Source: a virus. From it: a stretch of DNA of 28,112 nucleotides. The position numbers and the translations under genes were made by a program. Location: positions 1 through 28,112 of the IMG/VR virus record IMGVR_UViG_3300048124_000287, one strand, 5' to 3'. The notes beneath the pieces are model-generated. The model saw nothing but the letters and a program-made list of their open reading frames with translations, ran no database searches and had not been told where the DNA came from. Numbering within the stretch: the stretch's first letter is position 1; each line of letters begins with the position of its first letter. This document shows, piece after piece, positions 5,777-25,009 of this stretch.

Positions 5777-6084
5777 AATATTTAATTATTATAACATTAT
5801 TACTTTCATCTTGTTTTTCAGCTAACATAAAAAATAGCAACCATTATGATAGTAAAAAAATAATTCCAATACAAAAAATAGACACTAATAGCGATGGCAA
5901 TATATCTATATCAGAAATAAATTCATTCAAAACGAAAAACTTAAATAAAATAGATACAGAAAAAACAACACCTTTTAAAGTTTTTATTATATTAATGATT
6001 TCTGTACTTTTTATATCAGCAAGCCCTTACCTGCTAAACGTAATTCAAAATAAAAATGTCTTTAAGAATAAACAGAAGGAATAA
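5773..6084 (+). CDS. Probable unimolecular spanin with an EF-hand
   Basis: 103 residues with a lipoprotein signal peptide at residues 1-14 (lipobox LSSC, Cys14), a soluble middle (15-66), a transmembrane segment at about 68-91, and a basic tail (KNKNVFKNKQK). A lipidated N-terminus plus a C-terminal membrane helix is the topology of u-spanins such as T1 gp11, which link outer and inner membranes and fuse them in the last step of lysis. Unusually, the periplasmic part holds a canonical EF-hand loop at residues 37-48 (DTNSDGNISISE: D37, N39, D41, N43, S45, E48), predicted to bind Ca2+. It overlaps the holin candidate (ATGA), and the giant gene starts 29 nt before its stop. It implies a Gram-negative-type host with two membranes. 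Confidence 0.65.
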   Translation: MKYLIIITLLLSSCFSANIKNSNHYDSKKIIPIQKIDTNSDGNISISEINSFKTKNLNKIDTEKTTPFKVFIILMISVLFISASPYLLNVIQNKNVFKNKQKE

Positions 6085-9000
6085 TTTCTTAGAGATTAAA
6101 GAAGGCTCTAATTTAAAAATATTTAAATCCATTCCTAAATATTTAAAAAGTGAAATACCTGACCATGATTTCCCTTATCACTTAGGTTATTGCGGCGAAA
6201 CAAACTATGGCCTATATTCAGAGCCATCTTTTCATCATAATCAAGACACGTCTTTTCTAACAAGCTCAGCCGTTAAATTTAATGGTAATGAGTTCCTAGA
6301 AACCAATGAAATTAGCTTGGTTGATAAAAATAATTTTTCAATATCTGCCTGGGTCAAAACAAGCTCGAATCTAGAAGAAGTCTTAATAACCGACACAAAT
6401 TATGAAAACAGCGGTTCTTTTCAATTAAAGTCTAACAATGAAAACAATAGGCCAGAATTTTCCGTTTTTGATGGTACTGGATTTATATCCGTTACAGGAA
6501 ACTCTGGCATCAATGACAATGATTGGCACTTCCTAAATGTAAATTTTTCATGCGACCAAAACACCAAAAATTCTAGTATCGAAATATATATTGACTCAAA
6601 ATTACAAAACTCAAAAAACATAACAGGATTCATAGAGCTAGATAATATAGAAACAAGCGGATCTTTTAATTCTCAAAAAAGTCAACTATACAAACTTTTC
6701 GATAAAGACCACGCCACTTATATAGAAATGTCTGGAAGTCAAGACGAATCCGACTTTTACTTCTCGAATCCAATAACAGGCGGTATAGATAAAATTAGAT
6801 ATAGAGCTATAAATGACAGCGCTGCCTATGGCGAAGTTAAAGCGTCACTAATACTCAAAGACAAAATAACTGAAGAGGTATCAATATTTGATTTTCAATC
6901 TTTTGTATCTTCAAATTTCGACAGTAACAAAGGGGTTAGTAATATAAGTACTATCGCTAAAACACAAACTCCAGCCCCTAACGCTATACCCGAATATGGA
7001 ATTTCCTATAGTCCTGTTAATTTTCTTTTTTCAACTGGCTGCCCAACAGACTGTACTTATTTTAACTTACAAAATAAGACGTGGTTCCCTTTACAAGAAT
7101 ATAATATAGATTATAACCATGAAAACACATACAACAGAGGGTTCTACCCCTTAAGGCCCCAGGATGAAATAGATTACGAAACCGATTCAAATGGCGACAT
7201 TATCGAAAATGAACCGAAGAATATTAAAGCAAACTTCAACACATGGCAGACATACGCTCCATTTCTTTACGGTAGAGATTGGGATACCACCCAATTCCTA
7301 GACAAAGAAATCATAGGTTTCCGTTATAAATATTCTCCTAGTACAACAGAAAACGCAACATTCGGAATGGATTTCTCTAGAATTATAGAGTTTGGCTTGT
7401 ACTTAAAAAATAGCGAATATAATTTACTAGAGACCTCACCACTAAATGGTTTTAGCGGCCTAGTATCTAATCACAATAAATCATTTAACCTCACAATAGG
7501 CTCAACAGCTTCAGAAAATAAAACAAATTTTCTTAATGGATCGATAGATCAAATATTACTTTCTGACAAAACATTAACGCAAGACGAAATAGATTCTTTC
7601 TACTCAGAAAGAGATTCGATCTCATATAGCAGCGAACTGGCCGATGAACTAAAACTTATTTCATGGTATGATTTTTCTAACACTAATATAATTGGGTGGG
7701 ATAGACATAGCAAAGTCACAACCGAACAATTAGTCAGACTTTACAATTTTAATAATACAAGAGAAGATTCCAGCCCTTATGCTATAAAACCCGAACTTTT
7801 CGGCGATCTAAGTTTTTCGACGGAGGTGGTTAAGTTTCCAGGATACGCCGCCTTCTTTAATGGGTCAACTTATTTATTTGATCCAGGAGGCAGAGAGATG
7901 GACTTTCAGTCTAATTTTACAATAGAGTGCTTTATAAACTTTTCTACAGCGCCAAATAATAAGCAAACTATATTATCTTCAAAAAATTTCCAGTCAGATA
8001 GTACATCCATGGAGTATTACTTCATGAATGACAAAATGTATTTTGATATTTATCAATTAGATAATAAAATTATAACTATAGAAAGTGAAAAGCTAAATAT
8101 ATCAACCAACCAATACTACCATATAGCTGTATGTAGAAACAGAAATACAATTAACTTATTTTTCAATCAATCCTTATGTGGCGTAGCAGAACTTCCATTC
8201 TATGTTCCGATTTCTGATACACAAAATGGGTTATATATATCAGATGGGCTTCATGGGTATATTCAAGACTTGAGAATCATTCAAGATTCTGCTTTATATG
8301 AGCCTAATTTATATATAGATGATTTTTATAAAAGGTTAGACAACCAATTTACTGAAAGACATAATTTATATACAACTTCTCATTACCCTCTACATGAATC
8401 AGTAACCATGAGCGATAGTCGGGGAATATATATACCACAAGGACATTACCTAGAAACCGCCAATGATCATAAAGCTTTTAACTTCCACAAGAGAAGTTTT
8501 TCTATTTGTCTTTGGTTTCGATTAGAAAACTTAAATAAATCGGGGTTTGTATTAGGGTCGTGGAATGATGAAGGAGGGTACAGTCATAGTTACGCATTAA
8601 GATATGTTAAAAATTTTAGAAACCAAGTTAATACTTTAGTCTTTCTAGCTTCCGAAGACGGCACCAATTTTAGATCAGTTAAAACCGCTAAGTTAGAAAA
8701 TAATATAATTTCGCCCGAAACCTGGTACTTTACCTCAATTACATATAATGAAGATGATAAATCTCTAAATATGTATTTGTATAACGATACAGAATACATA
8801 GGCTCCACAAGCATGAAAGTTAACTCATTCTTCACAATATCAAGGCGAGATGATTTCCAAATAAATGGAGTAAAACATACAGAGTCTAGCAACACTTTCT
8901 TAGATTTATCGCTCAGTCAATTATTTTTCTCCCATAGAACTTTTTCATTCATAGATGTTCAAAATTTCTGGAACTCAGGAGTTGGAATAACATATGACGA

Positions 9001-12000
9001 AAATAATACAAACTTTAATAGAGACTTAATCGCTTGGTTTGATTTTAGCGAAGGCTCAATAAACGATGTTAATGGTAATAAAAACTTATCTTCTTCGTCA
9101 GCATTTTCTATCGTCGAAGGCAGAAAAAAATTAGAGTCAATCGATGATGGATCTGAAATATTTTTAGGCAAAATAACTGGAGGGGATAACCTACTTTTTA
9201 ACATGTCTGGCAATAGACCTACATATAAAATTTCTGGCATAAACAGCCTACCAAGCATCGAATTTGATAAAGATAATTTATCTTTTTTAGATTCTAATTT
9301 TGAGTTAGATTTCGTCAGTAGCTTTACTCTTTATTTCTGCTTCCAAAGCTTAGGCCAAAACAATGATTTTGCTCCCATCATTGATTTCTCAAATTCCGAA
9401 TCTGAAGGTTTATCGATACTTTGGAAAGATACTCCAGGTCAAGAGTACCTTGGCGAACTAAAACTTTTAGTTAATGGAGAAGAATTAATTTTAAAAGAAG
9501 AAAATTTCATTAGAAATATTAACGTAGTTTCTCTTGAATGGAACGTGCATAAAGAAAAGTTATTTATAACAATTAATAATTCCAGACTTTCATCCAGTCC
9601 CAGAGTTTTACACAAAACAGGGCTACAAACTAATTTTGCTAAAACCCCTTTATCTTTAGGTAAATTTTATTATGACTTTAACAATGAGCTTATTACTTTT
9701 AACGGCTTGTTATCTGAAGTACTTTTAAACAAAAACTATTCAGATCCTAATATATTGGAATATTTTTCATGCAAGTATAATTCAATACATCCAGGCTATC
9801 CAGTAGATTATATATATGATGATGAAACCCCTTCAATACTTTTTGATCTTAAAGAATTAAATCAAACTATCGGAGAAGGCACCACATCTCTTGGCAGACT
9901 TAAATGTGATTTACAGAATCCAATTTTCTCTATTGTAGATAGTGATGACTTTACTATAAATTCAGATGGTTATATTTCGTTAACATCACCAGCGGATAGA
10001 GAAACAGAAGCGTATACATTTACAATATTAGTCGAAGATGAAGACTCTGATCTAAGTGAAACGGTTAGTTTTATAAGTTATGTTCAAATAGATAACATCA
10101 TCGCAATTATTGACACCTCCAACCTAACAAAGTATATCTCTTCAGGAAATAAATCCGCGGGGAAACAATTAGGCCGAGTAACAACAACCGAAGCTGTAGA
10201 CTGGTCAATTTTTTCAAGTACAGACGCCAGTATCTCTATTACCTCTTCAGGATATATTGAACTAGCAGAAGATGTCTCAGAAGGGGTAAGCTCTTTTAGT
10301 TTTGTAATTTCAGCCACAGATTATCAAGAGAACATAACATCAACAACCCATACGGTGGAAATAGTTAATTTAGATGGTCATACAGAGATAGAATTTACCC
10401 CTAGATCAAATAACTACATTGATATTGAGACTATATTTTTACCGAATTCTACATGGATAGAGTTTGAATCAGAAGGAGAATCAGAAATTTTCCCTCTTCC
10501 AACCAATAATGGCGTTTTCACTTATCTCATAAATTCAAATAGTTTAAGGACGGAATCAAGTTTTAATACCCCAAGAACATCTCGATACTCACATCCTCTT
10601 TATGATTTTTATGATTCCGACAACTTAAGTTATAGGAGTGCCTTAAACCCTATAACCTCTACAAACTCAGAGCATTCTTATCTAGATAGTGAAACATTAA
10701 GCGCTAACTCATCAAATCCCCAAAGTTATGATCAATATGTTTCAGGCTACATTAACGCCTTTGAAGAATCCGATAACCCGTCATATTACTATGACAACCC
10801 AACAGAACTTAGAATCCACTTAACTAATAATAAATTCGATTCAGAACAACCTAACTCTTCCACCTATTTTGAATCATCAATAATTGAAAATACCGAGCTT
10901 GCTGCCTGTAAAAAAGTTTTAGATAACTTAAAATATATCGCTGATAGTAACCCATACTCAGTAGATCCTCCAGATTTTTCTATTGCGAATAATACTCATC
11001 GAATCTTCAGGATCTATACATCCTCTAACCAAAACAATAAGCCATGTAAGATTAGGCTCAAGACAGTTTCACTTTCAATAAAATCTTCAAATTCATCAAC
11101 GCCTCCCGATATTAAAATAAAAGCCGATCAAGATTCCTTTCTGCAACACTTGTCATTTGGCTACACGAGCGACTCTCCCACGCAATCCTTTATAAATAAA
11201 TTAACATTAGATTGTGAAACAGATCAATTAATTAGCTTAAGGTCTTTTTTCAACAATTTAGGAGCTTGTAATGAAATTGAAAAAATAAACTTTAATACTA
11301 AAAATGTAATTACTTTACATGATGCATTCGCCAATATAATCAGAAACGACGCCATTAATGATAATATTAAGAATTTTTTAAGCTCATTATCTTTCGAAAA
11401 CTTAATTACAGCTGAAAAGTGTTTCAGAATGTCCCACTTCACAGGTACTAGTGATTTAAATCTCTCGAACTGGAACACTTGGAATCTTCAAATAATTGAC
11501 AAGATGTTTGAAGATTCTAAATTCTATCAATGTCAATTAAAATTTTTATCCGAAGATATCAATACCATAACTCCGCCAAGACATTATGGCTCTTCGAATG
11601 ATTTTGATGATGTAGAGCCCGATTCATATCTGCCAAACAATTCATATATAACCTATTTTAATGGCATAATGAATTCAACTTTTTATACCAAAAAAATAAG
11701 AAGCGCCAGAGAATGTTTTCGCAACATTATAATTTCATCACAAACATTAACTACTACCGATGTGCACCAACCCACCAGGCACATCACGATAGATAATACT
11801 CCAACTAAAAATAAAAATGGAACAGATTATCTTGTTGCAACTCGAACACCTGAGTTATATTCTAGATACGCTGCAACTGTTCTAAACCAAATAAATTATG
11901 AGTATGAAGAGCTAGGTAATTTAGATTGTTTTTTAAATACAGAATTGAATTTAAATTGCTTTGAATTAGATTTGTGTTGCGCATCAAAAAATATGTTCTA

Positions 12001-15000
12001 CGCTTCTAATGTCGAAAAAATTAAAATTAGAAATTTAAACTTTACTCGAAAATTTGATTTAAGTTATTTTTTTTATAATTCAGAATTTTTAAGATTCGTA
12101 GAATTTCCTGAGGCTACACCAATAAAACCTACTGAAAGTTTAGCTTACAGTACGCGTAGCATGTTTCAAGATTGCTTATTTTTAGAAAATTTAGGCATTC
12201 AGACTTTCGCAGGGCAGTACGCTCAGTTTGAAAATCATAAGTCATTTATAGATGGATTTTCATTTTTTAACCTTGATCACTGCGTGGATGCGAGCTCTAC
12301 ATTTCAAAACTGCTATGTAATAACAAATATATCAATACCTAGGTTTACAAACATAATAAACTTAGCTCAGTTTGCTCAAAATTGTAGAAGCTTATCAAAA
12401 GTTGAAGGCTTCTCTACTCACGCAGAAAATAATCCTAAAATTATATATTTAGCTAAAAAAGCCGATGGAGAGCTTGATGGAATGAATGAAGCCGAAGAAA
12501 TGGACTGGATTATTGAAAATAATCTTCATTTACAAACTTGCAATACTAAAAATTTACGCAGCCTATCACTAGCTTTCAACAATTGTGAGAGAATTAGAAA
12601 ATTAGTTTTTAGCGGTTTATCTACAAACAAAGCCAAAAACTTGAGTAAGGCATTTTCAAATTGTCGAACATTGCGTGAAATTAGAATAGGGCTAGAGTAT
12701 CATACTAATAACTACAGAAATGGAGTTATTGCCACAGATAGACATAATATACAAGAATACTGGGATAATGCTGCAGTTCCTGCAGAGTCTATTGATTTTG
12801 GGGCATCTTTTGGCTCCAGCGGCAAGGGTAATGTAAAAATAAATGGGAAAGGGAATGTTTACGCAGAGTCAATCGGAGGAGCAGGAGTTAAAGTTTTTGA
12901 ATATGATGCGGCACTAGATCAATGGAATCAAAGAGGTGAAACAATTAATGCTCCATCAAATTCTTATAATAAATTTGGTCATGCAATCGAAATCGATGAA
13001 AATGGAGAAAGAATTATTGTATCAGATTTTCCAGATTCTGGCTCCACAGGCTCAGGTTATGTTCAAATATTTGAATGGAGTGGCGGTTCCTGGGGTCAGT
13101 TAGGCGACACTATAGTATCTAAAGAAAGTTCAAATGATACCTTCGGAGCAGATGTATCGATAAGTAAAGATGGTAATATAGTTGCAATATCCACAGAGGG
13201 AGATCCATTAACTCGAAACGCATCGCACCAAGTCGAATTCCAAGTACTAACATTCGCCAATCAACCAGGCGGATTTTTAACTTTATATTTATCTGAGACA
13301 TATTCTTCATACACAACCTTTGTTATTGAATTTTCTGCGCCCGAAACAGATCCAACAATAACGCAAAATGACACTACCTTAACTTTAAACTTCCCATATA
13401 ATAACTATGGCGTCTACTACCCTTACATAATCGATATAATAAACTGGCTCAACCTTCAGCCAGGCATTAGCGCAGAAGCATCCAGCGCCGTAAACTTAAA
13501 TAACTCAGGATTAGAGCAAAGTGAATCAGGGCAGACAGCCTACATTTCGCCCATCACCCTTACTAAAGGCACAAAAATCTTTTCTCTGGAAGATTCAAAC
13601 TGGGTGCAGTTAGGTGAAACTATATCCGCTGGACAATCAATAAATTTAAATAATAATGGAAGCATCATTTCAATAGGAGATCCAGAATATAATACAGACT
13701 CGGCTAATAATGTCGGCAAAGTCGAGGTTTTTGAATTTGATTCAAGCACATGGATTAAATTAGGCTCAACAATTACAGGGCCCGACACTAGCCCCGTATT
13801 AACAAAAACAGTTGCTAATATTGCTACAACTGACGGCGGAGCTTCCGAAGATCCAGCGAGAGTCATTGAATTAGACTTAACAGAAGAATATTTAAATGTA
13901 GAAAATTTTTCTTTGAATTTTTATCAAAATGCAAGTGAGGCAGTCTTAAGTAATGGAGGATTAGATTTAGCAATCAATGTAGATTTTTCTGCGGCAGATG
14001 TTAGTGAAGACTTTTTCTTTACAATACCTGTTCAAAGAAGAGAGAGCGGCCCACAATGGTGGGGACCAAATTATGTCTATCAGCGTGGAGGTACCATTAC
14101 AGTTTCTGGGGCTGGACTGAACGTAAACACCACTTTCACACTAACATTTACTGCAGCAGGAACCCCAGCAACCTTCGATCATGATATTGACAATAATACA
14201 GTAACCCTAACATACCCAAGGTTTTCATCTAATCAGACTTTTAGAGTCTGGACTACAGGTGGAGGTTCAACGTATTTAAGCATGGGCAAAGATCCCTCTG
14301 TGATAAGTTTGGTTAATTTTATAAATAATCAGAGTGGATTTAGCGCGACAACTACAGCAGCGACATCGTTTGAAAACCGATCTCCTCCTGGAACATTGCA
14401 AGGAACATACAATTCTACTTATTCTGGAGAAGGTCAAGGCCCCTATGTTGAACAATTTGTAAATTGGATCAATAATTCAGTTGAAAATATCTCTGCCAGA
14501 ATTACAGTTCCTTATGATAGTGAAACAAACTCAGGTATTGAACTAGATCAGTTTTTAAGACCTCAAGACAGATCTGATATTGTAAAATCTTACACAGATG
14601 CAGACGATAATAGGTTTGGCTACAATGACATAAATTTTAATGGCAACAGGGTTATTGTCGGCGCTACTCATAGCAATACAGAGGTTGGAGAAGACTCTGG
14701 CTTAGTTAAAATTTTTGATTACAACGGCACTGAATGGACTCAAGTAGGCACCACCATAAATGGGCACGAGTCATTAGCTAAAGAAGGTTTAGTTTCTATC
14801 AACAAGGTCGGAAACATAATAATTACTGGAGGAATAAATAAAAGAAACTTTAGAATTTTTAAAGAAATTAATAGTGAATGGATCGAGCAACATTCAGAAT
14901 CTCACATAATTTCTTCCACAAAAGAAGTTTCGATAGATATGGATTACTCAGGAGACAACACAATATCAATACAGTCATCTGATGCAGTAGTTCGAACTAG

Positions 15001-18000
15001 AAAAGAAAGAGAAATACAAATTTACAATGTTAATGGCTTCTTTGATACTAGAGAATGTAGAGATTTTAGTTCAATGTTCCAAAATTGCCTGATGTTAAAT
15101 CATTTTGGCGGCAAACTACTCCCGACTCCTGAGCTCTCATCATCAAATGATGTTTTTGGCATAATTGATGACAAAATTTTTGATTCCTTAGCATTCAATT
15201 ATAAGAGTGCGGTAAACTTAGAACAGATGTTTTCTTCAGTCTTTTCCGATTATTTATCTAATTTTATAAGTGACGTTAAAGCAATGCAGCAAAATTTCAG
15301 GATCTTTGGATCTTCAACATATTATGTAGAAATTAGACAAATGTTTGAAGTTGAGACGACACAAGAAATAGAAGAACTTATGTCTATATATTTCGATCTT
15401 GACGATCCCTTAGATCTTCCTGCTATAAATACTGCAACGTCTTTATTTTACAGTTCCCTAGGAGTTGAAAGTTTAGGTTCGCCCAAGCGATTATATTCCG
15501 CAATTAACGCTGGCCAAGCAAATGATATAATTGCGTGGAGTAAAAATTCCTCAAGCTCAACCATCCCAGATGAAAGCATTGACACTGCTTTATCAGTTTT
15601 ACAAAGTGAAGCATTTGATGTTATCCCAGAGCATAAATCTTTTTTCTTTAATTTTTATGATAGAGAAATAGATTCTGAAATTTCTTTAAAAAGTGTTTTT
15701 ATAATGAATGAAAATATTGAAAGCGTTAGGTTCTTAAAAAACCCAAATTTCAAAAATAAAATTAATAATATTTCAAATTCTTTTAATATTTGCAGAAGAT
15801 TGAGAGACTTCATAGATTTAAGAGGGTTTAATTTAAAGTCTGTAGAGTCAGCGGATTCTGTTTTTAGAGATTGTTATCATATTAAAAATATATATTTTGA
15901 CGATACATTTTTAAGCGAAGACAACGCAACCATCGACATTTCATTTATGTTTTATAATTGTTATTTCCTACAATCTATAAACAGTAGCAATTGGATAGGT
16001 GATAAACTGTATACAATGCGTTATGTTTTTTCGAATTGCCACTCCATTGAATCCATTAATCTCTCTAAATTAAATCCAGAAAATTGCTTATCTTTTGCAC
16101 AGGCATTTTATGAATGCAATTCAATAAATGAATTAAACTTAAATAATTTTTCAACTAAATTGGGGATTGATTTTTCGCAAATGTTTGAAGGGGTAGGGGG
16201 AGCTTATCCTGTATGGGAATTTATATACGAACCATATGGCCCAGAAGGCAGTTCTGGTACAGTATCAAATCGCCAGCCCGATCATCTTTATCGTCATGCT
16301 AGAGGAATTTATACATATTTCATGAATAATTATATAAGAGATAATTCTAACAATATAATTCCTCCAAGCTCTGATTTTACATTAAATGTTTACCAAGATA
16401 TAACTTACCTAAGTTGGTATTCTCTCTTTTTTGGATCATTCGCGACATACGACATGTCACAACCATACGAAAGTCCATCAGCTTATTTATATTTTGATTT
16501 CCTAAGAGACAACTTCTTCACAGAAGCTCAATCAACTATGCCTACGCAAGCAGAATACGATGCCTACATCAATGGCAAATGGGACAACTCAGAAGGTTTA
16601 GATTCTATAGACCTAACAAGTTTCGATATTTCCAATGCCTGTGAAACCAGCCACTATAACTATAGTAGTTACAGTATGACTCCCGCTATAAATACGACTT
16701 ACCGTGAGTTTTTTGGCGATAAATACTTACCGAGACTTAGCGTCTCCTCCTCCGTTATGCAACAGCCACCAACGACTAATATAGCATTAAGTCCATTTTT
16801 CTTAAAAGCGAAAGAGTCAGCTAATCTATATTATTTCGAAAAAATTAACGAGTCAGATCATCCACTTGATTATACTGATCGACTATTTAATGAATTCGAA
16901 AAAGCTTACGAAGGAGATGAAGAAATTTACAGTCGAAATTTTAATTTTCTAGCCGATCCCTACAGTCAACTTTTTTTTAGTTTTAGAGGTAGATTAAGAG
17001 GGGGAGTATCAGACATGTTTAATAATTTATCTATAAATACCTTAACCATACCCGAAAATTTCAAAATAAGCAATCATTCTAAAAAATTTATAAATTCAAA
17101 TTTAGTGGGCAGCTCAGTAGGATTCATTAAACAGTTAATGCAAAACGCAAGTTCTAAATTATTTTATACTCAAGATGAAATTTTAAATTTCATGAATGAC
17201 CCTAATTATGAGGATATACAGAATATTGGCACGTCGAATAACCCTAACCCTCTGTACGGATCTTTCGAGATAGCCCTTTCACCTTCTTGCGACAATCTAT
17301 TTGAAGACCTTAGAGCAAATGAATTAAATATTTCCGATAATTTTTTAGAAAGTTTATCGGCGACTAGAGATATAACTAACCTATTTAATTCTGCATCCTC
17401 TAGAAATATCAACGAACATTGGTCGTATGAAGAATATTCGCCTGGGCAAATACTCGGTGGGGCAATTAAAACAAATTCAACCAACTTTTCAAAACTAAAC
17501 ACAAGCTCAGTCGTATTTTTTCATAGAGCCTTTTCAAAAGCAATGCTCGAAAATTTAGACTTATCGACGCTAAATACATCTAAAGGTCTTGACCTCTCAT
17601 ATATGTTTAACTATTGGGACTTAAGTTTAAATCCTCTAGTTCTATCTAATATGGATACGTCTAGCGCGCGCACGATGAGTTATATGTTCTCTGAGATCAA
17701 AGATCATAGTTCGCAAACAGCAATACCTTCTGCATTAGATTTATCTTCTCTAAGTTTTAAAAATGTCACGAATATTCAAGGAATATTCGAAAACACTAAC
17801 ATTAATATCGTAACAATTCCTACTTATTCAAATTTATTCAAAACTAGCAGTGATACTAATTTAATAAACATAAGTAATGCTTTTAGGCAAACTACTGAGG
17901 GAGTAAGTCCTAGCGAATCGGTCCACCATAATAACATTAAAGAAAAAATTGACAAAATCAACTCTTTAATAGCGAATTTATCAAAAGGAGACACTTCTGA

Positions 18001-20902
18001 CCTTTTCTTTGTTTCTGGGTTATTTTATAGCGCATTCCCTTCTTTAGGGAGCACCGTATCTTTTATTTACGGAAGACTTACATCTTTAAATGAAAATCAA
18101 AGTGATTATAATACGGCAGTAAATCCAAATTATGCGTCACGTGATGATTTTTTAAGTCAAGAATACTCGCATAGATATACAACCAATGGAAATTTCTTTT
18201 ATAACGATAATTTAGAAGACCTTTCAAACCAAGATTATATATTAGATATAAGCCCTCTCAATATGGGAGGATTTAGAAAATCCACCTATTCGACCATAGA
18301 TTGGCGTTATATGTTTTATTTTATTTCAGTAAAAGGGATTAAAGGAATAAATGACATCAATTTTGATATAAGAAATGTTCAAGGTTTCGCAAATTATCAA
18401 CTCTCAAATATGTTTTACGGGTTCAGAACATACCACGAAGAAGCTACTAGAGTCTATAACAATACAGCAAACGCCACGAATGGCCCAATAGCTACAATAG
18501 GCTCATTCAACACTGCATTACTGCATACAATAGACTTATCAGATTGGTGCACAGAAGGAACATCCAGACCAAGTCGTTTTTCTTTTGCAAACCAGACAAC
18601 ACTCGAACACGAGATTACCAAAGATAATGTATCATACATCATGTTTAAAGAGCCAGACTGGGGTATTAACTGTGATCTAAATTTAGAATATACAATCTCG
18701 AATATTACTCCAGGCTCGAGAGTTCAAGTTTTTAACTTGACTCGTTATTATGAACTTTACAACGATATAGTAAATTCAACTTCACTTGTTGATAATTTTG
18801 TTTCCTCTGAAATACAAGAAGGAGACTTATTAAGAATAAGAGTATCTTTCAATAATGGGTCTAGCGCCGAGCTTCCGCAAGAAAAAATAGTTGAATTAAG
18901 CTATCCTGGATTAAATATCGCAATGAACCCAGAATCCTCCTCAGTTTACACAGAGATAGGTGTAGACGGATCTGCAGTAAATGAGTTTTCTCTAAATAAA
19001 GTCAGAAATAGCCCTCCTGCTTATCAAATAAAAATAGACGACTCTAATGATGAAACGTTCGTTGAAAGATTCATTGCTTGGTATCTTAGTGAGGTGACTA
19101 CGGAAATTGGTATTCATGTTTTATTTGGTGCTTATGAAATCATAAATAAAAATCAAGCAAAATTAAATACTGATTACAATTATAATGTCGAAATTACATT
19201 CAGCACAGTAAGCGATTTATCTCCAGCAATTAAACTGAATAACGTTAATAGCAACATTTTATATTTCAGGGATGGTATAATAAATACTTCAGATGGCTCA
19301 TCAATAAAAAGTGAAATTGTAGAAAACGGCTTTGGCGACGGATCGTCCCCAAGTAATGAAATTATATTTGATGACATTGTGCTCGATTTATCTACCGTTG
19401 ACGCCTCTTATGGTGGAACTGATATTGAATTTGTTTTAATAGAGACTGGCAGCTTTGAAGCTAATATGACTACTGGATGCATAGACTGTCTCGGAAGCGA
19501 AGAAACTCAAGAAGTTTTTATAACAGAAGAATTTTATCTAGCTAAAACAGAAGTGACTCAAGCTCAATATGAACTTATCGCTCGCAACAATTCAATAAAT
19601 CTTGCAACAAACCCAAGCACATTCACAGGTCCGAATTTACCAGTTGAAACAGTCTCTTGGTTTGATACTGAAAAGTTTATAGGCATAATGAATACAGAAT
19701 TTACAGGATTGATACCTGTGGGATGGAGCTTTAGCTTACCATCTGAAGCAGAATGGGAATTTGCTGGAAGAGCTGGCTCTACAGGTTACTACCACTGGGG
19801 TAATAGCATCTCATCTTCAGACGCCAATTACAATTGGGATGAAGGACAAAACGATGGATCTGATGAAAATCAAACGGTAGATGTAACAGGTTATAGCCCT
19901 AATAATTCAGGAATATATGATATACATGGAAATGTTTCAGAATGGGTGCTCGATTCAGCCCAAGAGCAATATCCAGGCGAGTCAACCATCGATCCTGTCA
20001 TAGTTGCAGAAGAATACCCTCCAAATTCTGTAGTTAATCCTTTTTCTTTTGCTTCTGACGTAGAAAAAATTATTAGAGGCGGAGCATGGAACAGTGAAAG
20101 CGATAAATTAAAGTTTGGATATAGATCTAAAGCAGAATCTATTGCTAAAAGTAGGGCTGTTGGTTTTAGGCTAGCGATTAGAAAAACTCCCTTAGTTCAA
20201 TTTAATAGAGACACATTCATACTAGTGACTTTTGACTCCTCAGGCTCAATGAGTGGTGCAGAGCCTGAAATATTAGCTGCCCTTTCTGGAGGATACTTTA
20301 AATCTGGAAGTACTACTGAACGAAACCCAGAATCACTCAGAGCAATTTTACAAGATTTTTATGCAACAGCTGGAACAGAATTTTCTGGAAACACAAATCC
20401 TGCTACTAACGGAAGAGATGAGTATGATAAAAAAGTTAAATTCCTTGCGAACGGCAGTGAAAGACACTGGGAATATATAAGAAATGCTTATGGAACAGGA
20501 GGGTTAGGGGTAGGAACAGGAGATGATTTCGAAGGAGCCAAAGCTATTATATCTTTAGCATTCCAAGACGAGTCTTCGCCCTATTCTAATAATCCTACCA
20601 ACACACAGAGTCAAGCCGATATTACTCAACTAAAAGCAGATGTTTCCGCCTTACCAGCTGGCGTATTATTCTTTGCTCACTCTTTCCATGTAACAGGTAC
20701 GCCAGCCTTCAAGAGCTACCTACAAGGCATAGAAAGTGGAGTAGCTGGATTAAGTTCTAACTTCACTCTAGAAACAGAACCCTGGTCTCAAATGTTTGGA
20801 TTCTCTTATGACTTAGATGAAAATGAATCTACGCTTTATTTCAGAAACAAGATGCTTGACGCAATCGAAAGCAAAGGGTATAAACTACCCTCAGTCTTTT
20901 AA
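6056..20902 (+). CDS. Giant multidomain adhesin / receptor-binding protein (4948 aa)
   Basis: One uninterrupted frame of 4948 codons plus TAA. There is no signal peptide (it starts MSLRINRRNN), which favours a virion component over a secreted protein. Approximate residue order: LamG/concanavalin-like modules 67-1245, two cadherin-like domains 1256-1437, a Ser/Asn/Tyr-rich stretch to about 1715, BspA/DUF285 repeats 1716-2212, a beta-propeller interrupted by extra modules 2245-2992, more DUF285 repeats 2995-4168, an all-beta module 4196-4439, an FGE-sulfatase-fold domain 4446-4712 and a C-terminal VWA domain 4716-4948 with an intact DxSxS MIDAS (D4727, S4729, S4731). Nearly all of these families bind glycans or proteins in other settings. 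The gene overlaps the spanin by 29 bp and follows fibre and lysis genes. Inference: a very long tail fibre or host-adhesion protein. A decoration protein is an alternative. Confidence 0.85.
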   Translation: MSLRINRRNNFLEIKEGSNLKIFKSIPKYLKSEIPDHDFPYHLGYCGETNYGLYSEPSFHHNQDTSFLTSSAVKFNGNEFLETNEISLVDKNNFSISAWVKTSSNLEEVLITDTNYENSGSFQLKSNNENNRPEFSVFDGTGFISVTGNSGINDNDWHFLNVNFSCDQNTKNSSIEIYIDSKLQNSKNITGFIELDNIETSGSFNSQKSQLYKLFDKDHATYIEMSGSQDESDFYFSNPITGGIDKIRYRAINDSAAYGEVKASLILKDKITEEVSIFDFQSFVSSNFDSNKGVSNISTIAKTQTPAPNAIPEYGISYSPVNFLFSTGCPTDCTYFNLQNKTWFPLQEYNIDYNHENTYNRGFYPLRPQDEIDYETDSNGDIIENEPKNIKANFNTWQTYAPFLYGRDWDTTQFLDKEIIGFRYKYSPSTTENATFGMDFSRIIEFGLYLKNSEYNLLETSPLNGFSGLVSNHNKSFNLTIGSTASENKTNFLNGSIDQILLSDKTLTQDEIDSFYSERDSISYSSELADELKLISWYDFSNTNIIGWDRHSKVTTEQLVRLYNFNNTREDSSPYAIKPELFGDLSFSTEVVKFPGYAAFFNGSTYLFDPGGREMDFQSNFTIECFINFSTAPNNKQTILSSKNFQSDSTSMEYYFMNDKMYFDIYQLDNKIITIESEKLNISTNQYYHIAVCRNRNTINLFFNQSLCGVAELPFYVPISDTQNGLYISDGLHGYIQDLRIIQDSALYEPNLYIDDFYKRLDNQFTERHNLYTTSHYPLHESVTMSDSRGIYIPQGHYLETANDHKAFNFHKRSFSICLWFRLENLNKSGFVLGSWNDEGGYSHSYALRYVKNFRNQVNTLVFLASEDGTNFRSVKTAKLENNIISPETWYFTSITYNEDDKSLNMYLYNDTEYIGSTSMKVNSFFTISRRDDFQINGVKHTESSNTFLDLSLSQLFFSHRTFSFIDVQNFWNSGVGITYDENNTNFNRDLIAWFDFSEGSINDVNGNKNLSSSSAFSIVEGRKKLESIDDGSEIFLGKITGGDNLLFNMSGNRPTYKISGINSLPSIEFDKDNLSFLDSNFELDFVSSFTLYFCFQSLGQNNDFAPIIDFSNSESEGLSILWKDTPGQEYLGELKLLVNGEELILKEENFIRNINVVSLEWNVHKEKLFITINNSRLSSSPRVLHKTGLQTNFAKTPLSLGKFYYDFNNELITFNGLLSEVLLNKNYSDPNILEYFSCKYNSIHPGYPVDYIYDDETPSILFDLKELNQTIGEGTTSLGRLKCDLQNPIFSIVDSDDFTINSDGYISLTSPADRETEAYTFTILVEDEDSDLSETVSFISYVQIDNIIAIIDTSNLTKYISSGNKSAGKQLGRVTTTEAVDWSIFSSTDASISITSSGYIELAEDVSEGVSSFSFVISATDYQENITSTTHTVEIVNLDGHTEIEFTPRSNNYIDIETIFLPNSTWIEFESEGESEIFPLPTNNGVFTYLINSNSLRTESSFNTPRTSRYSHPLYDFYDSDNLSYRSALNPITSTNSEHSYLDSETLSANSSNPQSYDQYVSGYINAFEESDNPSYYYDNPTELRIHLTNNKFDSEQPNSSTYFESSIIENTELAACKKVLDNLKYIADSNPYSVDPPDFSIANNTHRIFRIYTSSNQNNKPCKIRLKTVSLSIKSSNSSTPPDIKIKADQDSFLQHLSFGYTSDSPTQSFINKLTLDCETDQLISLRSFFNNLGACNEIEKINFNTKNVITLHDAFANIIRNDAINDNIKNFLSSLSFENLITAEKCFRMSHFTGTSDLNLSNWNTWNLQIIDKMFEDSKFYQCQLKFLSEDINTITPPRHYGSSNDFDDVEPDSYLPNNSYITYFNGIMNSTFYTKKIRSARECFRNIIISSQTLTTTDVHQPTRHITIDNTPTKNKNGTDYLVATRTPELYSRYAATVLNQINYEYEELGNLDCFLNTELNLNCFELDLCCASKNMFYASNVEKIKIRNLNFTRKFDLSYFFYNSEFLRFVEFPEATPIKPTESLAYSTRSMFQDCLFLENLGIQTFAGQYAQFENHKSFIDGFSFFNLDHCVDASSTFQNCYVITNISIPRFTNIINLAQFAQNCRSLSKVEGFSTHAENNPKIIYLAKKADGELDGMNEAEEMDWIIENNLHLQTCNTKNLRSLSLAFNNCERIRKLVFSGLSTNKAKNLSKAFSNCRTLREIRIGLEYHTNNYRNGVIATDRHNIQEYWDNAAVPAESIDFGASFGSSGKGNVKINGKGNVYAESIGGAGVKVFEYDAALDQWNQRGETINAPSNSYNKFGHAIEIDENGERIIVSDFPDSGSTGSGYVQIFEWSGGSWGQLGDTIVSKESSNDTFGADVSISKDGNIVAISTEGDPLTRNASHQVEFQVLTFANQPGGFLTLYLSETYSSYTTFVIEFSAPETDPTITQNDTTLTLNFPYNNYGVYYPYIIDIINWLNLQPGISAEASSAVNLNNSGLEQSESGQTAYISPITLTKGTKIFSLEDSNWVQLGETISAGQSINLNNNGSIISIGDPEYNTDSANNVGKVEVFEFDSSTWIKLGSTITGPDTSPVLTKTVANIATTDGGASEDPARVIELDLTEEYLNVENFSLNFYQNASEAVLSNGGLDLAINVDFSAADVSEDFFFTIPVQRRESGPQWWGPNYVYQRGGTITVSGAGLNVNTTFTLTFTAAGTPATFDHDIDNNTVTLTYPRFSSNQTFRVWTTGGGSTYLSMGKDPSVISLVNFINNQSGFSATTTAATSFENRSPPGTLQGTYNSTYSGEGQGPYVEQFVNWINNSVENISARITVPYDSETNSGIELDQFLRPQDRSDIVKSYTDADDNRFGYNDINFNGNRVIVGATHSNTEVGEDSGLVKIFDYNGTEWTQVGTTINGHESLAKEGLVSINKVGNIIITGGINKRNFRIFKEINSEWIEQHSESHIISSTKEVSIDMDYSGDNTISIQSSDAVVRTRKEREIQIYNVNGFFDTRECRDFSSMFQNCLMLNHFGGKLLPTPELSSSNDVFGIIDDKIFDSLAFNYKSAVNLEQMFSSVFSDYLSNFISDVKAMQQNFRIFGSSTYYVEIRQMFEVETTQEIEELMSIYFDLDDPLDLPAINTATSLFYSSLGVESLGSPKRLYSAINAGQANDIIAWSKNSSSSTIPDESIDTALSVLQSEAFDVIPEHKSFFFNFYDREIDSEISLKSVFIMNENIESVRFLKNPNFKNKINNISNSFNICRRLRDFIDLRGFNLKSVESADSVFRDCYHIKNIYFDDTFLSEDNATIDISFMFYNCYFLQSINSSNWIGDKLYTMRYVFSNCHSIESINLSKLNPENCLSFAQAFYECNSINELNLNNFSTKLGIDFSQMFEGVGGAYPVWEFIYEPYGPEGSSGTVSNRQPDHLYRHARGIYTYFMNNYIRDNSNNIIPPSSDFTLNVYQDITYLSWYSLFFGSFATYDMSQPYESPSAYLYFDFLRDNFFTEAQSTMPTQAEYDAYINGKWDNSEGLDSIDLTSFDISNACETSHYNYSSYSMTPAINTTYREFFGDKYLPRLSVSSSVMQQPPTTNIALSPFFLKAKESANLYYFEKINESDHPLDYTDRLFNEFEKAYEGDEEIYSRNFNFLADPYSQLFFSFRGRLRGGVSDMFNNLSINTLTIPENFKISNHSKKFINSNLVGSSVGFIKQLMQNASSKLFYTQDEILNFMNDPNYEDIQNIGTSNNPNPLYGSFEIALSPSCDNLFEDLRANELNISDNFLESLSATRDITNLFNSASSRNINEHWSYEEYSPGQILGGAIKTNSTNFSKLNTSSVVFFHRAFSKAMLENLDLSTLNTSKGLDLSYMFNYWDLSLNPLVLSNMDTSSARTMSYMFSEIKDHSSQTAIPSALDLSSLSFKNVTNIQGIFENTNINIVTIPTYSNLFKTSSDTNLINISNAFRQTTEGVSPSESVHHNNIKEKIDKINSLIANLSKGDTSDLFFVSGLFYSAFPSLGSTVSFIYGRLTSLNENQSDYNTAVNPNYASRDDFLSQEYSHRYTTNGNFFYNDNLEDLSNQDYILDISPLNMGGFRKSTYSTIDWRYMFYFISVKGIKGINDINFDIRNVQGFANYQLSNMFYGFRTYHEEATRVYNNTANATNGPIATIGSFNTALLHTIDLSDWCTEGTSRPSRFSFANQTTLEHEITKDNVSYIMFKEPDWGINCDLNLEYTISNITPGSRVQVFNLTRYYELYNDIVNSTSLVDNFVSSEIQEGDLLRIRVSFNNGSSAELPQEKIVELSYPGLNIAMNPESSSVYTEIGVDGSAVNEFSLNKVRNSPPAYQIKIDDSNDETFVERFIAWYLSEVTTEIGIHVLFGAYEIINKNQAKLNTDYNYNVEITFSTVSDLSPAIKLNNVNSNILYFRDGIINTSDGSSIKSEIVENGFGDGSSPSNEIIFDDIVLDLSTVDASYGGTDIEFVLIETGSFEANMTTGCIDCLGSEETQEVFITEEFYLAKTEVTQAQYELIARNNSINLATNPSTFTGPNLPVETVSWFDTEKFIGIMNTEFTGLIPVGWSFSLPSEAEWEFAGRAGSTGYYHWGNSISSSDANYNWDEGQNDGSDENQTVDVTGYSPNNSGIYDIHGNVSEWVLDSAQEQYPGESTIDPVIVAEEYPPNSVVNPFSFASDVEKIIRGGAWNSESDKLKFGYRSKAESIAKSRAVGFRLAIRKTPLVQFNRDTFILVTFDSSGSMSGAEPEILAALSGGYFKSGSTTERNPESLRAILQDFYATAGTEFSGNTNPATNGRDEYDKKVKFLANGSERHWEYIRNAYGTGGLGVGTGDDFEGAKAIISLAFQDESSPYSNNPTNTQSQADITQLKADVSALPAGVLFFAHSFHVTGTPAFKSYLQGIESGVAGLSSNFTLETEPWSQMFGFSYDLDENESTLYFRNKMLDAIESKGYKLPSVF
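6250..9790 (+). other. LamG / concanavalin A-like module array in the giant protein
   Basis: Residues about 67-1245 hold about four beta-sandwich modules recognisable by the LamG_3 pattern: a marker such as VKFNGNEFLE, AAFFNGSTYLF or YIPQGHYLE; then FSISAWVK, FTIECFI, FSICLWF or FTLYFCF; then WHFLNV, YYHIAV or WYFTSI; and a closing LNGSIDQILLSDKTL-type strand. The first module is split: between about residues 199 and 470 lies an insert beginning LFDKDHATYIEM that loosely resembles a discoidin-type strand pattern. These folds usually bind glycans. Boundaries are by eye. Confidence 0.65.
9820..10370 (+). other. Two cadherin-like domains in the giant protein
   Basis: Two consecutive units (residues about 1256-1347 and 1348-1437) show the bacterial cadherin pattern: FSIVDSDDFTINSDGYISL ... 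YTFTILVEDED, and WSIFSS ... ISITSSGYIELA ... FSFVISATDYQ. Such domains act as rigid Ca2+-stabilised spacers. Confidence 0.55.
11180..12700 (+). repeat. BspA-like (DUF285) repeat block 1
   Basis: Protein-level repeats with the DUF285 signature M-F-x-x-C-x-x-[IL] and a following strand. Examples: RSMFQDCLFLENLGI, SSTFQNCYVITNISI, SLAFNNCERIRKLVF, SKAFSNCRTLREIRI. About ten units are visible between residues 1716 and 2212, with irregular spacers. BspA-like repeats form curved leucine-rich-like solenoids used in adhesion. The DNA itself is not obviously repetitive, so the units are old. Confidence 0.7.
12790..15030 (+). other. Beta-propeller (FG-GAP/integrin-alpha-like) interrupted by inserted modules
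   Basis: Five to six blade motifs are readable: VKVFEY ... W-x-x-RGETI, VQIFEW ... W-x-QLGDTI, TKIFSL ... W-x-QLGETI, VEVFEF ... W-x-KLGSTI, VKIFDY ... W-x-QVGTTI and a degenerate FRIFKE ... WIEQ. Between them come F-G-x-x-[VI]-x-[IL]-x-x-[DN]-G-x-x-[IV] segments typical of these propellers. Blades 2/3 and 4/5 are separated by foreign modules (about 13215-13560 and 13800-14580), so the propeller has to close around two insertions. The whole propeller splits the DUF285 region in two. Confidence 0.6.
15040..18560 (+). repeat. BspA-like (DUF285) repeat block 2
   Basis: About seventeen further units (residues about 2995-4168), from SSMFQNCLMLNHF through DSVFRDCYHIKNIYF, SFMFYNCYFLQSINS, RYVFSNCHSIESINL and AQAFYECNSINELNL to LDLSTLNTSKGLDLSYMFN and LSNMFYGFR. 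Early units keep the Cys; later ones lose it (SYMFNYW, SYMFSEI, QGIFENT). Long Asn/Ser/Tyr-rich spacers separate some units. It continues the solenoid begun in block 1 after the propeller insertion. Confidence 0.7.
19391..20190 (+). other. FGE-sulfatase (SUMF1/C-type-lectin) fold domain without catalytic cysteines
   Basis: Residues about 4446-4712 follow the formylglycine-generating-enzyme pattern from end to end: FVLIETGSF, FYLAKTEVTQAQYE, LPVETVSWFD, FSLPSEAEWEFAGRAG, GIYDIHGNVSEWV (GNVSEW at 4625-4630), RGGAWN (4674-4679) and VGFRLAIRK (4702-4710). The segment after RGGAWN, where true FGE has its two active cysteines, contains none (SESDKLKFGYRSKAES). A binding rather than enzymatic role is therefore expected. 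This is the same broad fold used by variable proteins of diversity-generating retroelements. Confidence 0.85.
20201..20899 (+). other. C-terminal von Willebrand factor A (VWA) domain
   Basis: Residues about 4716-4948. The first strand TFILVTFDSSGSMSG carries the MIDAS triad D4727-x-S4729-x-S4731. A Gly-rich loop with a TGDD segment follows, then a helix-strand stretch (FEGAKAIISLAF; PAGVLFFAHSFHV). MIDAS sites bind divalent cations and acidic ligands. It ends the giant protein, so it may lie at the distal tip or at an anchoring point. Confidence 0.8.
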
Positions 20903-20962: not shown

Positions 20963-21976
20963 ATGAAAGATAAAACAGGAGAACTACTAACAAAAAATAT
21001 TGCAGGAGTAAATAGAATTTTACCTCATAAACATAAATACGCTTGGGATTTATTTCTTAAAAGTTGCGCCAATAATTGGATGCCAACAGAAATCTCAATG
21101 CAGAATGATATTCAACAATGGAAAAACAATGAAATTACAGAAGATGAAAAACTACTTGTTAAACGCTGTCTTGGATTTTTTGCTGGATCTGAGTCTTTGG
21201 TTGGTAATAACCTTTTGTTATCTGCTTTCCGCTTTATCACAGATGCTGAGTGCCGCCAATACATACTTCGTCAAGCTTTTGAAGAGAGCCTTCACAATCT
21301 TACGGTAGTCTATATATGTGACAGTTTAGACCTAGAAATAGAAGAAGTATTTGCTGCATATGAAAATATACCAAGCATCAAGGCTAAAGATGACTTCTTA
21401 ATGTCTATCACGAACGATATTAGTCGTCAAGACTTCAATCCACACACGAAAGAAGGTAAGCAAGAAATATTAAGAAACTTTCTTACTTATTGGATTGTAT
21501 GTGAAGGTACATTTTTCTTTAGCGGCTTCGCTATGTTACTAGCTCTTGGCAGACAAAACAAACTCCAAGGAATCTCAGATCAAATAAAATACACACTGAG
21601 AGATGAAAGTTCTCACATTGCATTTGGAACTTATTTAATTAACACATTAATTGAGCAAAATCCATCAATATGGACTAAAGCAATTCAAGATGAATTTATC
21701 GAGCATATAAAGAAAGCTGTAGAGCTAGAAATTGCATATGCACATGATGTACTTCCAACTGGAATTTTAGGATTGAATGCAGAAATGTTCGTCGATTACA
21801 TGCACTATATAGGCAACAGAAGGCTAGAGGCAATAGGCTTAGACTATCGCTTTCCTAGTGACAAAAACCCATTTCCTTGGCTAGGAGAAGTTGTTGACGT
21901 TCAAGCTATGGGCAACTTCTTTGAGAGAAGAGTAAGAGAGTACCAACAAAGTGGATCGTTAGAAGACGACTTCTAA
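20963..21976 (+). CDS. nrdB: Ribonucleoside-diphosphate reductase, beta subunit, class Ic-like (no radical tyrosine)
   Basis: 337 residues; the radical-generating subunit that pairs with NrdA. The di-metal site is readable: E77 (FFAGSESLV), E108 and H111 (AFEESLH), E181 (VCEGTFFF), E215 and H218 (RDESSH). E. coli NrdB has Asp84 at the first ligand and Tyr122 as radical. Here the first ligand is Glu77, and the residue seven after E108, the radical position, is Val115. Glu plus Phe/Leu/Val at these places defines class Ic (chlamydial type) reductases, which use a Mn(IV)/Fe(III) cofactor instead of a tyrosyl radical. W39 and Y327 (REYQQSGSLEDDF tail) fit the radical-transfer path. It has its own promoter and is about 18.5 kb from nrdA. 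Bases 21160-21310 show a CTT/CGC-rich codon patch like that in nrdA. Confidence 0.96.
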   Translation: MKDKTGELLTKNIAGVNRILPHKHKYAWDLFLKSCANNWMPTEISMQNDIQQWKNNEITEDEKLLVKRCLGFFAGSESLVGNNLLLSAFRFITDAECRQYILRQAFEESLHNLTVVYICDSLDLEIEEVFAAYENIPSIKAKDDFLMSITNDISRQDFNPHTKEGKQEILRNFLTYWIVCEGTFFFSGFAMLLALGRQNKLQGISDQIKYTLRDESSHIAFGTYLINTLIEQNPSIWTKAIQDEFIEHIKKAVELEIAYAHDVLPTGILGLNAEMFVDYMHYIGNRRLEAIGLDYRFPSDKNPFPWLGEVVDVQAMGNFFERRVREYQQSGSLEDDF

Positions 21977-23499: not shown

Positions 23500-24605
23500 T
23501 GACAGAAACACAATCAAATACATTTTTAAAATCTTTTCTTAAAAACAATAAAGAGTATCACTATAATTTTGAAGAAGAGATAGATTATAAAGTCTCAAGC
23601 GGCAGTCTTAGGATGGACTTTGAGCTTGGAGGAGGATTCGGCCCAGGGCTGCACAGGTTTGTAGGAATGAATGAAGGGGGCAAAACATCCGAATCTCTAG
23701 AAGTTATGAAAAACTTTTTAAATACGCAAGAAAAAAGTAAAGGTTTCTTCATTAAAGCGGAAGGGCGGTTAAGTCCTGAAATGAGGTTACGCTCAGGAAT
23801 AAATTTTGTATTTTCTGAAGATGAATGGGTAGAAGGAACTTGTTTTGTTTTCGAAAGTAACGTTTATGAAACAGTTTTAGAGGTCATGAAGATGCTAATA
23901 TTAAACAATGACGACGGAAACAAATACTGCTTTGTACTTGATTCTCTAGATGGACTAATCACTAAAGATGACTTAAATAAATCTTTTGAAGATGCTCATA
24001 AAGTTGCTGGAGGAGCGCTGCTTGGCGCAAAGTTCATGCAAAGAATGAGTATATCTTTAGCGAAAAGAGGTCACATGGCGATATTCATATCTCAAGTGAG
24101 AGCAGACATCAAGATAGACCCATACTCAAAAGCACCAGTAAGGCAAACTAGCGCAACTGGAGGTAATGCTTTATTACACTTTGCAAATTTTATATTAGAA
24201 TTTCAGCCTAGGTTTAAAAAAGATATTATATTAGAAGATCAAGCTAAACCAGTTTGTCCAGATAAAAATCCTATGCTCGGGCATCTAGTAAGTATCGCAG
24301 TTAAAAAATCTCCCAACGAAAAAACAAACTATACATTAAACTACCCAATTAAATATGGAAGACAGGGAGGTAATTCAGTGTGGGTTGAGAGAGAGATCAT
24401 AGATATGCTTTATTTATGGGGTTATGTAAATAAAAAAGGAGCATGGATTAGTGTCGAAGAAGATTTTATTAATATTTTAAAAGATAATAATTTTGATTTT
24501 CCTGAAAAAATACAAGGAGATTCTAAATTAAATAACCACCTAGAGGAGAATCCTGAACTAGTCACATTTTTAATTAATCATTTTAAAGAAGTTATATCTA
24601 AGTGA
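23499..24605 (+). CDS. uvsX: UvsX/RecA-like recombinase
   Basis: 368 residues. RecA-family ATPase core: Walker A GMNEGGKT at 56-63 (K62, T63), the catalytic Glu in FIKAEGRL (E88), Walker B CFVLD at 144-148 followed by SLDGL, and the DNA-binding L2 segment QTSATGGNALLHFANFILEF, preceded by ISQVRADI. The family coats single-stranded DNA and drives strand exchange for recombination-dependent replication and repair. The short N-terminal region and a roughly 370-residue length fit phage UvsX-type proteins better than bacterial RecA. It sits in an overlapping operon between the 112-aa gene (TAATG) and the Vsr-like nuclease (GTGA). The gene symbol is by family; orthology to T4 uvsX is likely but not proven. 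Confidence 0.9.
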   Translation: MTETQSNTFLKSFLKNNKEYHYNFEEEIDYKVSSGSLRMDFELGGGFGPGLHRFVGMNEGGKTSESLEVMKNFLNTQEKSKGFFIKAEGRLSPEMRLRSGINFVFSEDEWVEGTCFVFESNVYETVLEVMKMLILNNDDGNKYCFVLDSLDGLITKDDLNKSFEDAHKVAGGALLGAKFMQRMSISLAKRGHMAIFISQVRADIKIDPYSKAPVRQTSATGGNALLHFANFILEFQPRFKKDIILEDQAKPVCPDKNPMLGHLVSIAVKKSPNEKTNYTLNYPIKYGRQGGNSVWVEREIIDMLYLWGYVNKKGAWISVEEDFINILKDNNFDFPEKIQGDSKLNNHLEENPELVTFLINHFKEVISK

Positions 24606-25009
24606 AGTTTAAAACTACCTCTGGAGTTATTAAGCGAGCAAAAACTCCTAAAAAATATTTTATTAATTGGGGCGCAGAAAGCAAAAGTAAATTCCAAAAA
24701 AACGTAAAAGATTTTCTTTTTGATTTTTGGCGCTACGATGTAGTGCTTGAAGAATTCCCTATTCCTGGAAGTAGGCTTTCAATAGACTTTTTCAATGTAA
24801 ATAAAAAAATTGCAGTCGAAGTTCAAGGGGATCAGCATATTAAGTATGTGCCTTATTTTCATCAAACAAAAGGCAATTACTTACATCAATTAAGGAAAGA
24901 TAAAGATAAAGAAAATTTCTGTAAAATAAATGATATAATTTTAGTAGAAATATTTACTGATGATATTGTATCTAAAGATTTATTTAAAAAGTATAATATA
25001 GATTTATAG
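24602..25009 (+). CDS. Vsr/DUF559-like PD-(D/E)XK endonuclease
   Basis: 135 residues, starting at a GTG that overlaps the uvsX stop (GTGA). The nuclease core is visible: LEEFPIPGSRLSIDFF (D62), then KKIAVEVQGDQH (E73, Q75), then a helix LRKDKDKENFCKINDIILVEIF. This is the D...ExQ arrangement of very-short-patch-repair-like and DUF559 nucleases. H79 and the HQ at 87-88 may add to the active site. Overlap with uvsX suggests a role in processing DNA during recombination, for example nicking or junction trimming. It could also be a relic of a mobile endonuclease domesticated next to uvsX. Confidence 0.8.
   Translation: MKFKTTSGVIKRAKTPKKYFINWGAESKSKFQKNVKDFLFDFWRYDVVLEEFPIPGSRLSIDFFNVNKKIAVEVQGDQHIKYVPYFHQTKGNYLHQLRKDKDKENFCKINDIILVEIFTDDIVSKDLFKKYNIDL

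Follow-up and report, generated by a model that had tools for sequence, protein, structure and literature searches.

Tyrosine-less class I ribonucleotide reductases (RNRs) have been described before. R2c forms with Leu, Ile or Val were noted in PMC3824934 (2013), PMC6370689 (2019) counts proteins with Phe, Leu or Val as NrdBzc, and a recent preprint (PMC12918982; bioRxiv, February 2026) names a virus-borne subclass Ic-like from 269 GOV 2.0 alpha sequences that form a clade nearest NrdAz. As reported there, the beta subunits of the group lack the radical tyrosine and have isoleucine or valine in its place, the metal is left open, and the viruses are anti-correlated with modelled iron, although single trace metals fail to explain their distribution. 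The absence of the tyrosine is therefore not a new finding.

We analysed positions 1–28,112 of the IMG/VR record IMGVR_UViG_3300048124_000287, hereafter the window (28,112 nt). Its NrdB, matched by description, is a further member of the Ic-like group, as its IMG/VR relatives also are by virus-borne origin and Ile or Val at the radical position, and it has one extra unusual residue near the metal site, Thr211. The accessible text of the preprint makes no mention of a Glu first ligand, of Thr211 or nearby residues, of an ATP cone or of a host guess. New in the present analysis are the Thr211 feature, the full check of ligands and transfer residues, the codon evidence and the anatomy of NrdA, which broaden the sequence and genomic record of a virus group that was named recently and is known by sequence.

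The nrdB gene and its metal site

The ORF at 20963–21976 (+) has a stop-free translation of 337 aa and encodes an intact NrdB; its coordinates, strand and residue numbers agreed in full with the preliminary description of this DNA. A phmmer search against the PDB matched C. trachomatis (Ct) R2 (1syy/2ani/4d8f; E about 7e-112, within about 1e-111 to 1e-112 across these entries). Because the alignment runs ungapped between residue 8 and about residue 290, query residue n corresponds to Ct n+12 at a constant offset, and MAFFT alignments gave the same columns for the ligands and the radical site. NCBIfam model NF005550 scored 450 bits (cut-off 309), placing the protein in the NrdBz family with Ct R2 as the nearest solved chain, and Pfam PF00268 scored 257 bits, well over its cut-off, as expected of a class I RNR beta subunit (NrdB/R2) with a ferritin-like fold and two carboxylate/EXXH motifs. 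The features of the gene are as follows.

20963–21976, + strand: nrdB, radical-generating subunit of class I RNR, NrdBz family (class Ic-like), 337 aa (phmmer, NF005550, PF00268, AlphaFold2 model)
21077–21079, + strand: Trp39, radical transfer, equivalent to E. coli Trp48 and Ct Trp51 (alignment, relatives)
21191–21193, + strand: Glu77, first metal ligand, equivalent to E. coli Asp84 and Ct Glu89 (phmmer, MAFFT)
21284–21286, + strand: Glu108, bridging metal ligand, equivalent to Ct Glu120 (alignment, relatives)
21293–21295, + strand: His111, metal ligand, equivalent to Ct His123 (alignment, relatives)
21305–21307, + strand: Val115, at the position of E. coli Tyr122 and Ct Phe127 (phmmer, MAFFT, codon comparison)
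21503–21505, + strand: Glu181, metal ligand, equivalent to Ct Glu193 (alignment, relatives)
21590–21592, + strand: Tyr210, equivalent to Ct Tyr222 (alignment, relatives)
21593–21595, + strand: Thr211, equivalent to Ct Ile223 and E. coli Ile234; invariably Thr in the phage clade, at the Glu-4 offset that the Thr of class Id also has (85/85 Thr versus 101/101 Ile)
21602–21604, + strand: Asp214, radical transfer, equivalent to E. coli Asp237 and Ct Asp226 (alignment, relatives)
21605–21607, + strand: Glu215, metal ligand, equivalent to Ct Glu227 (alignment, relatives)
21614–21616, + strand: His218, metal ligand, equivalent to Ct His230 (alignment, relatives)
21941–21943, + strand: Tyr327, radical transfer in the C-terminal tail, equivalent to E. 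coli Tyr356 and Ct Tyr338 (alignment, relatives)

The equivalent of Tyr210, Ct Tyr222, serves as an electron relay in activation of the Ct cofactor. Both phmmer and MAFFT comparison with Ct R2 confirmed the earlier placement of Val115 in the Tyr122/Phe127 column, with no Tyr in that column, and of Glu77 in the Asp84 column; the five other ligands, previously called intact, are all present in the Ct R2 alignment. The sequence shows that the phage NrdB has a full ligand set and an intact transfer chain without a radical tyrosine, alongside a NrdA with an intact active site.

The AlphaFold2 model of NrdB, built on an alignment of 43 sequences from the window and fetched loci, had a pLDDT of 82 and a pTM of 0.83, with low confidence in the C-terminal tail. 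Its best structural match was the Ct Mn/Fe NrdB 4d8f (TM 0.87, 1.6 A, 51% identity), indicating a predicted fold the same as that of Ct NrdB, a comparison that speaks to fold and not to metals. Class Ic Ct NrdBzc (1syy/4d8f/4m1i) shares with the phage protein the Glu first ligand, the non-Tyr radical site, this fold and the equivalents of Trp51/Tyr222/Asp226/Tyr338. In contrast to the Ct enzyme, the phage protein has Val/Ile for Phe, and Ct Ile223, Tyr220, His125 and Met192 are replaced in it by Thr, Ile, Leu and Cys, respectively; its C-terminus ends in DDF, and its NrdA has one ATP cone, against three in Ct NrdA. Two sequence features of class Ic (NrdBzc) were found in the window NrdB: a non-Tyr residue at position 122 (V115; Phe, Leu or Val per PMC6370689) and Glu as first ligand (E77).

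Conservation and phylogeny of the phage clade

In the best 81 IMG/VR viral relatives of NrdB (89–98% identity), Glu77 was present in 81/81, residue 115 was Val in 69 and Ile in 12, and the metal ligands together with W39, Y210, D214 and Y327 were invariant. The dereplicated set of 85 distinct phage proteins, reaching down to 82% identity, showed the same pattern, with Glu as first ligand in 85/85 and a radical site occupied by Val in 60 proteins and by Ile in 25. A codon-pattern scan retrieved at least 119 stretches encoding non-Tyr proteins with the QAFEE..H motif and 15 with the Tyr version of the pattern. Codon 115 varies synonymously (GTA/GTT/GTG/GTC for Val, ATT/ATA/ATC for Ile), and this variation, with the relatives, ruled out chance or sequencing error at the codon. 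On a phage tree with the column masked, Val and Ile were exchanged at least 10 times; therefore, an aliphatic residue is retained at 115, but no particular one.

The median dN/dS of nrdB was about 0.025 (29 pairs unsaturated at synonymous sites), indicating strong purifying selection. This value and the invariant ligand and transfer residues of the best 81 relatives argue against a dead or regulatory subunit. A metal-free class Ie-like subunit was rejected, since class Ie lacks three of the Glu ligands (PMC8463856) whereas all six metal ligands are intact here, and no Tyr is available to become DOPA; either version of this explanation is highly improbable.

The two traits are fully coupled: among 186 aligned NrdBz-type proteins, a fetched set rather than a random sample, 114 were Glu77/non-Tyr, 72 were Asp77/Tyr and none was mixed. 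The 80 bacterial relatives fetched comprised 23 Glu/Phe, one Glu/Leu and 56 Asp/Tyr proteins, with Val or Ile at the radical site in 0/80. The idea that Val is the rarer variant did not hold here, as Val/Ile is the rule within the phage group.

Cultured-phage members of the family include Pseudomonas phages Peetri, Lauda and others (42–43% identity), of which Peetri, the sole one read, is Asp/Tyr. Such class Ia-type NrdBz proteins (Peetri, proteobacteria) belong to the same family at ~42–50% identity, but differ from the phage clade in having an Asp first ligand and Tyr. Among INPHARED phages, NrdB identity did not exceed 46%. The top INPHARED match, Acinetobacter phage MD-2021a (45%, Asp/Tyr), was set aside because its locus resembles a bacterial chromosome contig; the nrdAB flanks of this entry (L082, CAKLQH020000007.1) carry rstAB, LysR and TetR genes and look bacterial-chromosomal. 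Separately, a few IMG/VR candidate viral contigs (L167/L290, L169, L170, L203, L231, L244; one of 436 kb, one of 176 kb) carry an ordinary class Ic-type Glu/Phe NrdB, whereas PMC12918982 reports no class Ic in GOV 2.0.

The preliminary description had proposed an NrdB phylogeny as a check, and the outcome was divided. When both trait columns were masked, maximum likelihood (ML) placed the phage clade as a single, very long branch (2.2 changes per column) amid bacterial Glu/Phe sequences, those of Chlamydiae, Planctomycetes and Verrucomicrobia included, with a support of 81/74. Neither Phe as one clade (p 0.33) nor a grouping of the phage proteins with the Asp/Tyr set (p 0.34) was rejected by the AU test, and rooting on phage NrdB of other families was unusable owing to very long branches. 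Derivation of the phage clade from the class Ic side would be the better reading.

Thr211 and the probable cofactor

We set the 85 phage proteins against 101 others, of which 29 are Glu/Phe-or-Leu and 72 are Asp/Tyr. The results revealed Thr at column 211 in 85/85 of the phage clade versus Ile in 101/101 of the other aligned proteins. Fixed clade differences close to the ligands in sequence comprised G75, S76, S109, N112, L113, V/I115, C180, F186, I208, T211 and I219, and, V/I115 aside, these residues are rare or absent among the Glu/Phe proteins in the comparison. The radical pocket is described as lined by three hydrophobic residues, one of them an Ile (PMC3824934), and we infer, by matching columns to the numbering of that paper, that Thr211 would stand in the place of this Ile.

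A threonine at this offset is known from class Id. In L. blandensis NrdB, Thr294, four residues before ligand Glu298, hydrogen-bonds the tyrosine and keeps it off the metals (PMC6754362), and Thr191 of F. johnsoniae has the same role (PMC8463856). The phage proteins combine an Ic-type pair of ligand and radical site with this class Id residue. Class Id NrdBi likewise has a Glu first ligand and carries a Thr at position -4 from the Glu of its final E..H motif, but unlike the phage clade it keeps the Tyr, has Lys71 and is di-Mn, at ~20% identity. Membership in class Id was rejected because the phage NrdB, despite Thr211 and Glu77, has neither the Tyr nor the Lys that the characterised class Id subgroup has at first ligand +4 (Gly81), and because identity is about 20%. 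Since the tyrosine is absent, the role of Thr211 must differ from that of the class Id threonine; as a guess, it might hold a water where the aromatic ring would otherwise be. Ser occupies column 211 in two Asp/Tyr phage proteins (L310, L312), so a polar residue there is not diagnostic by itself.

The pair Glu77 and Val115 had been taken as the signature of R2c and, with it, of Mn(IV)/Fe(III). The class Ic-like part of that claim stands (Glu, non-Tyr, NrdBz, 4d8f nearest), but these two residues by themselves do not establish Mn(IV)/Fe(III), because the clade has about ten fixed near-ligand differences, notably Thr211. A Mn/Fe cofactor in the phage NrdB is likely, though not certain. Given the Glu first ligand, the missing radical Tyr, the NrdBz scaffold and a closest solved structure that is the Mn/Fe Ct NrdB, the protein is probably a class Ic-like radical generator of the NrdBz family, with a metal-only oxidant and paired with the phage NrdA. 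The gap-free alignment of the metal motifs, NF005550, the Glu/non-Tyr coupling, the invariant ligand and transfer residues, the intact NrdA residues, purifying selection and the ML placement count for this reading; the clade-fixed near-ligand residues, the AU p of 0.34 for the Asp/Tyr grouping and the branch length of 2.2 count against it.

We infer the metal identity, the oxidant and the activity of the enzyme as follows. The dimetal centre, which most likely has Mn at site 1 and Fe at site 2, would be oxidised by O2 or peroxide, and the high-valent centre itself, without a tyrosyl radical, would take an electron to start nucleotide reduction. The electron would pass along Trp39/Asp214, Tyr327, NrdA Tyr767/Tyr766 and NrdA Cys430 (numbering of the truncated window NrdA). 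Val/Ile115 would fill space without taking part in redox chemistry. Thr211, together with the remaining near-ligand residues specific to the clade, would probably retune or re-solvate the metal site, and the RNR would supply the phage with dNTPs for replicating itself.

The same residues bear on another metal-only oxidant, Mn2(IV,III) formed class Id-style via superoxide or peroxide on the NrdBz scaffold. The Glu first ligand with Thr211 at the offset of L. blandensis Thr294 (Glu298-4) and F. johnsoniae Thr191 fits such a centre; a Thr at Glu-4 next to a water-filled space from the missing ring would favour it, class Id also couples Glu with a non-radical site, and PMC12918982 found no single-metal explanation of virus distribution. 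However, Glu77+4 is Gly81 rather than the class Id Lys, the tyrosine held by the class Id threonine is missing, the Ser of the two Asp/Tyr phage proteins means that a polar residue alone decides nothing, and the protein is overall nearest Ct R2c (51%), with class Id structures at 18–20%. We consider this centre unlikely. It is conceivable, if doubtful, that the phage clade represents a cofactor subclass of its own, a cross of Ic and Id in which a second shell of Val/Ile115 and Thr211 on the NrdBz scaffold would steer to a non-chlamydial metal pair or oxidant, e.g. Mn2 and superoxide. A tyrosine-less Fe/Fe enzyme with the iron centre as oxidant would be compatible with every ligand, but is very unlikely, as maximal Ct R2c activity requires Mn and Fe (PMC8463856) and a Glu first ligand is common to the Mn-using classes Ic and Id.

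The Val/Ile115–Thr211 pair offers a sharp handle on how the second shell of class I RNRs sets the choice of metal and oxidant. If the enzyme does use Mn, phage replication would be tied to oceanic trace-metal supply. Resistance to NO, peroxide or iron limitation, proposed in the preliminary description for a radical-free cofactor, is a hypothetical benefit.

The NrdA partner, host and genome context

The catalytic subunit is encoded at the start of the window.

3–2417, + strand: nrdA, catalytic subunit, with ~12 N-terminal residues lost at the contig start, one N-terminal ATP cone and all catalytic residues present (profile matches, relatives)

The truncated NrdA scored 866 bits against its best NCBIfam model, NF005544 (cut-off 965). 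Full-length NrdA in relatives measured 807–832 aa and bore a single ATP cone at its N-terminus (44 bits against a cut-off of 25.8). The equivalents of C225/N437/C439/E441/C462/Y730/Y731/C754/C759, which take in the catalytic and radical-transfer residues and the C-terminal cysteines, were kept in 13/13. A cognate NrdA was found on 16/17 contigs searched, which argues against the view that NrdB is no RNR subunit but an R2lox-type enzyme, a two-electron oxidase that carries a Val-Tyr cross-link. The Mn/Fe-type ligand set and the absent radical tyrosine would suit such an oxidase, and the protein has a Val at Glu77+3 and a Tyr at Glu181-5, though Ct R2c has both too. R2lox models, however, scored at best 74 bits against a cut-off of 194, and the C-terminal Tyr327 is invariant whereas R2lox has no such Tyr (PMC3824934). 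R2lox identity was rejected on these three grounds and is scarcely credible.

In the window, nrdA and nrdB are non-adjacent, separated by a NUDIX gene, a number of small genes and an ORF of 4948 aa; in relatives, their spacing and relative strand are variable. The large ORF (6056–20902) has LamG-like, DUF285 and C-terminal FGE-sulfatase domains and probably encodes a giant protein of the tail or for adhesion. The end of the window carries a RecA/UvsX-like recombinase, a DnaB-like helicase and a primase, and the window is therefore a phage replication region. A small HNH/homing-endonuclease-like gene (24602–25009) immediately follows the recombinase gene.

The longest contigs of the lineage reach ~200 kb. 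The phage is large, uncultured and probably marine, its habitat being judged by the match to the description in PMC12918982. Helicase, RecA-like and terminase proteins of the lineage showed <30% identity to any INPHARED phage and gave no pointer to a host. DUF1501 was present in 11/17 clade contigs, and it also matched two control genomes outside Planctomycetota/Verrucomicrobiota. The families DUF1501 and DUF1549/DUF1553 are typical of Planctomycetota and Verrucomicrobiota. A host from these phyla, which would fit the closest Glu/Phe NrdBs, is a guess from sequence.

Several further genes were seen in relatives. In G001, a 203 kb relative, DUF1549/DUF1553 and DUF1501 genes lie adjacent (L331:4263-6533 and L331:6951-8243). 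Spermidine synthase adjoins nrdA in the same genome, which also has S-adenosylmethionine decarboxylase (L327:7531-8433, L331:15155-15559), and the arrangement recurs upstream of nrdA in L314; the phage thus appears to encode a polyamine pathway. G001 additionally encodes two UvdE-type UV endonucleases in a single phage genome (L330:8389-9489, L332:38-1048).
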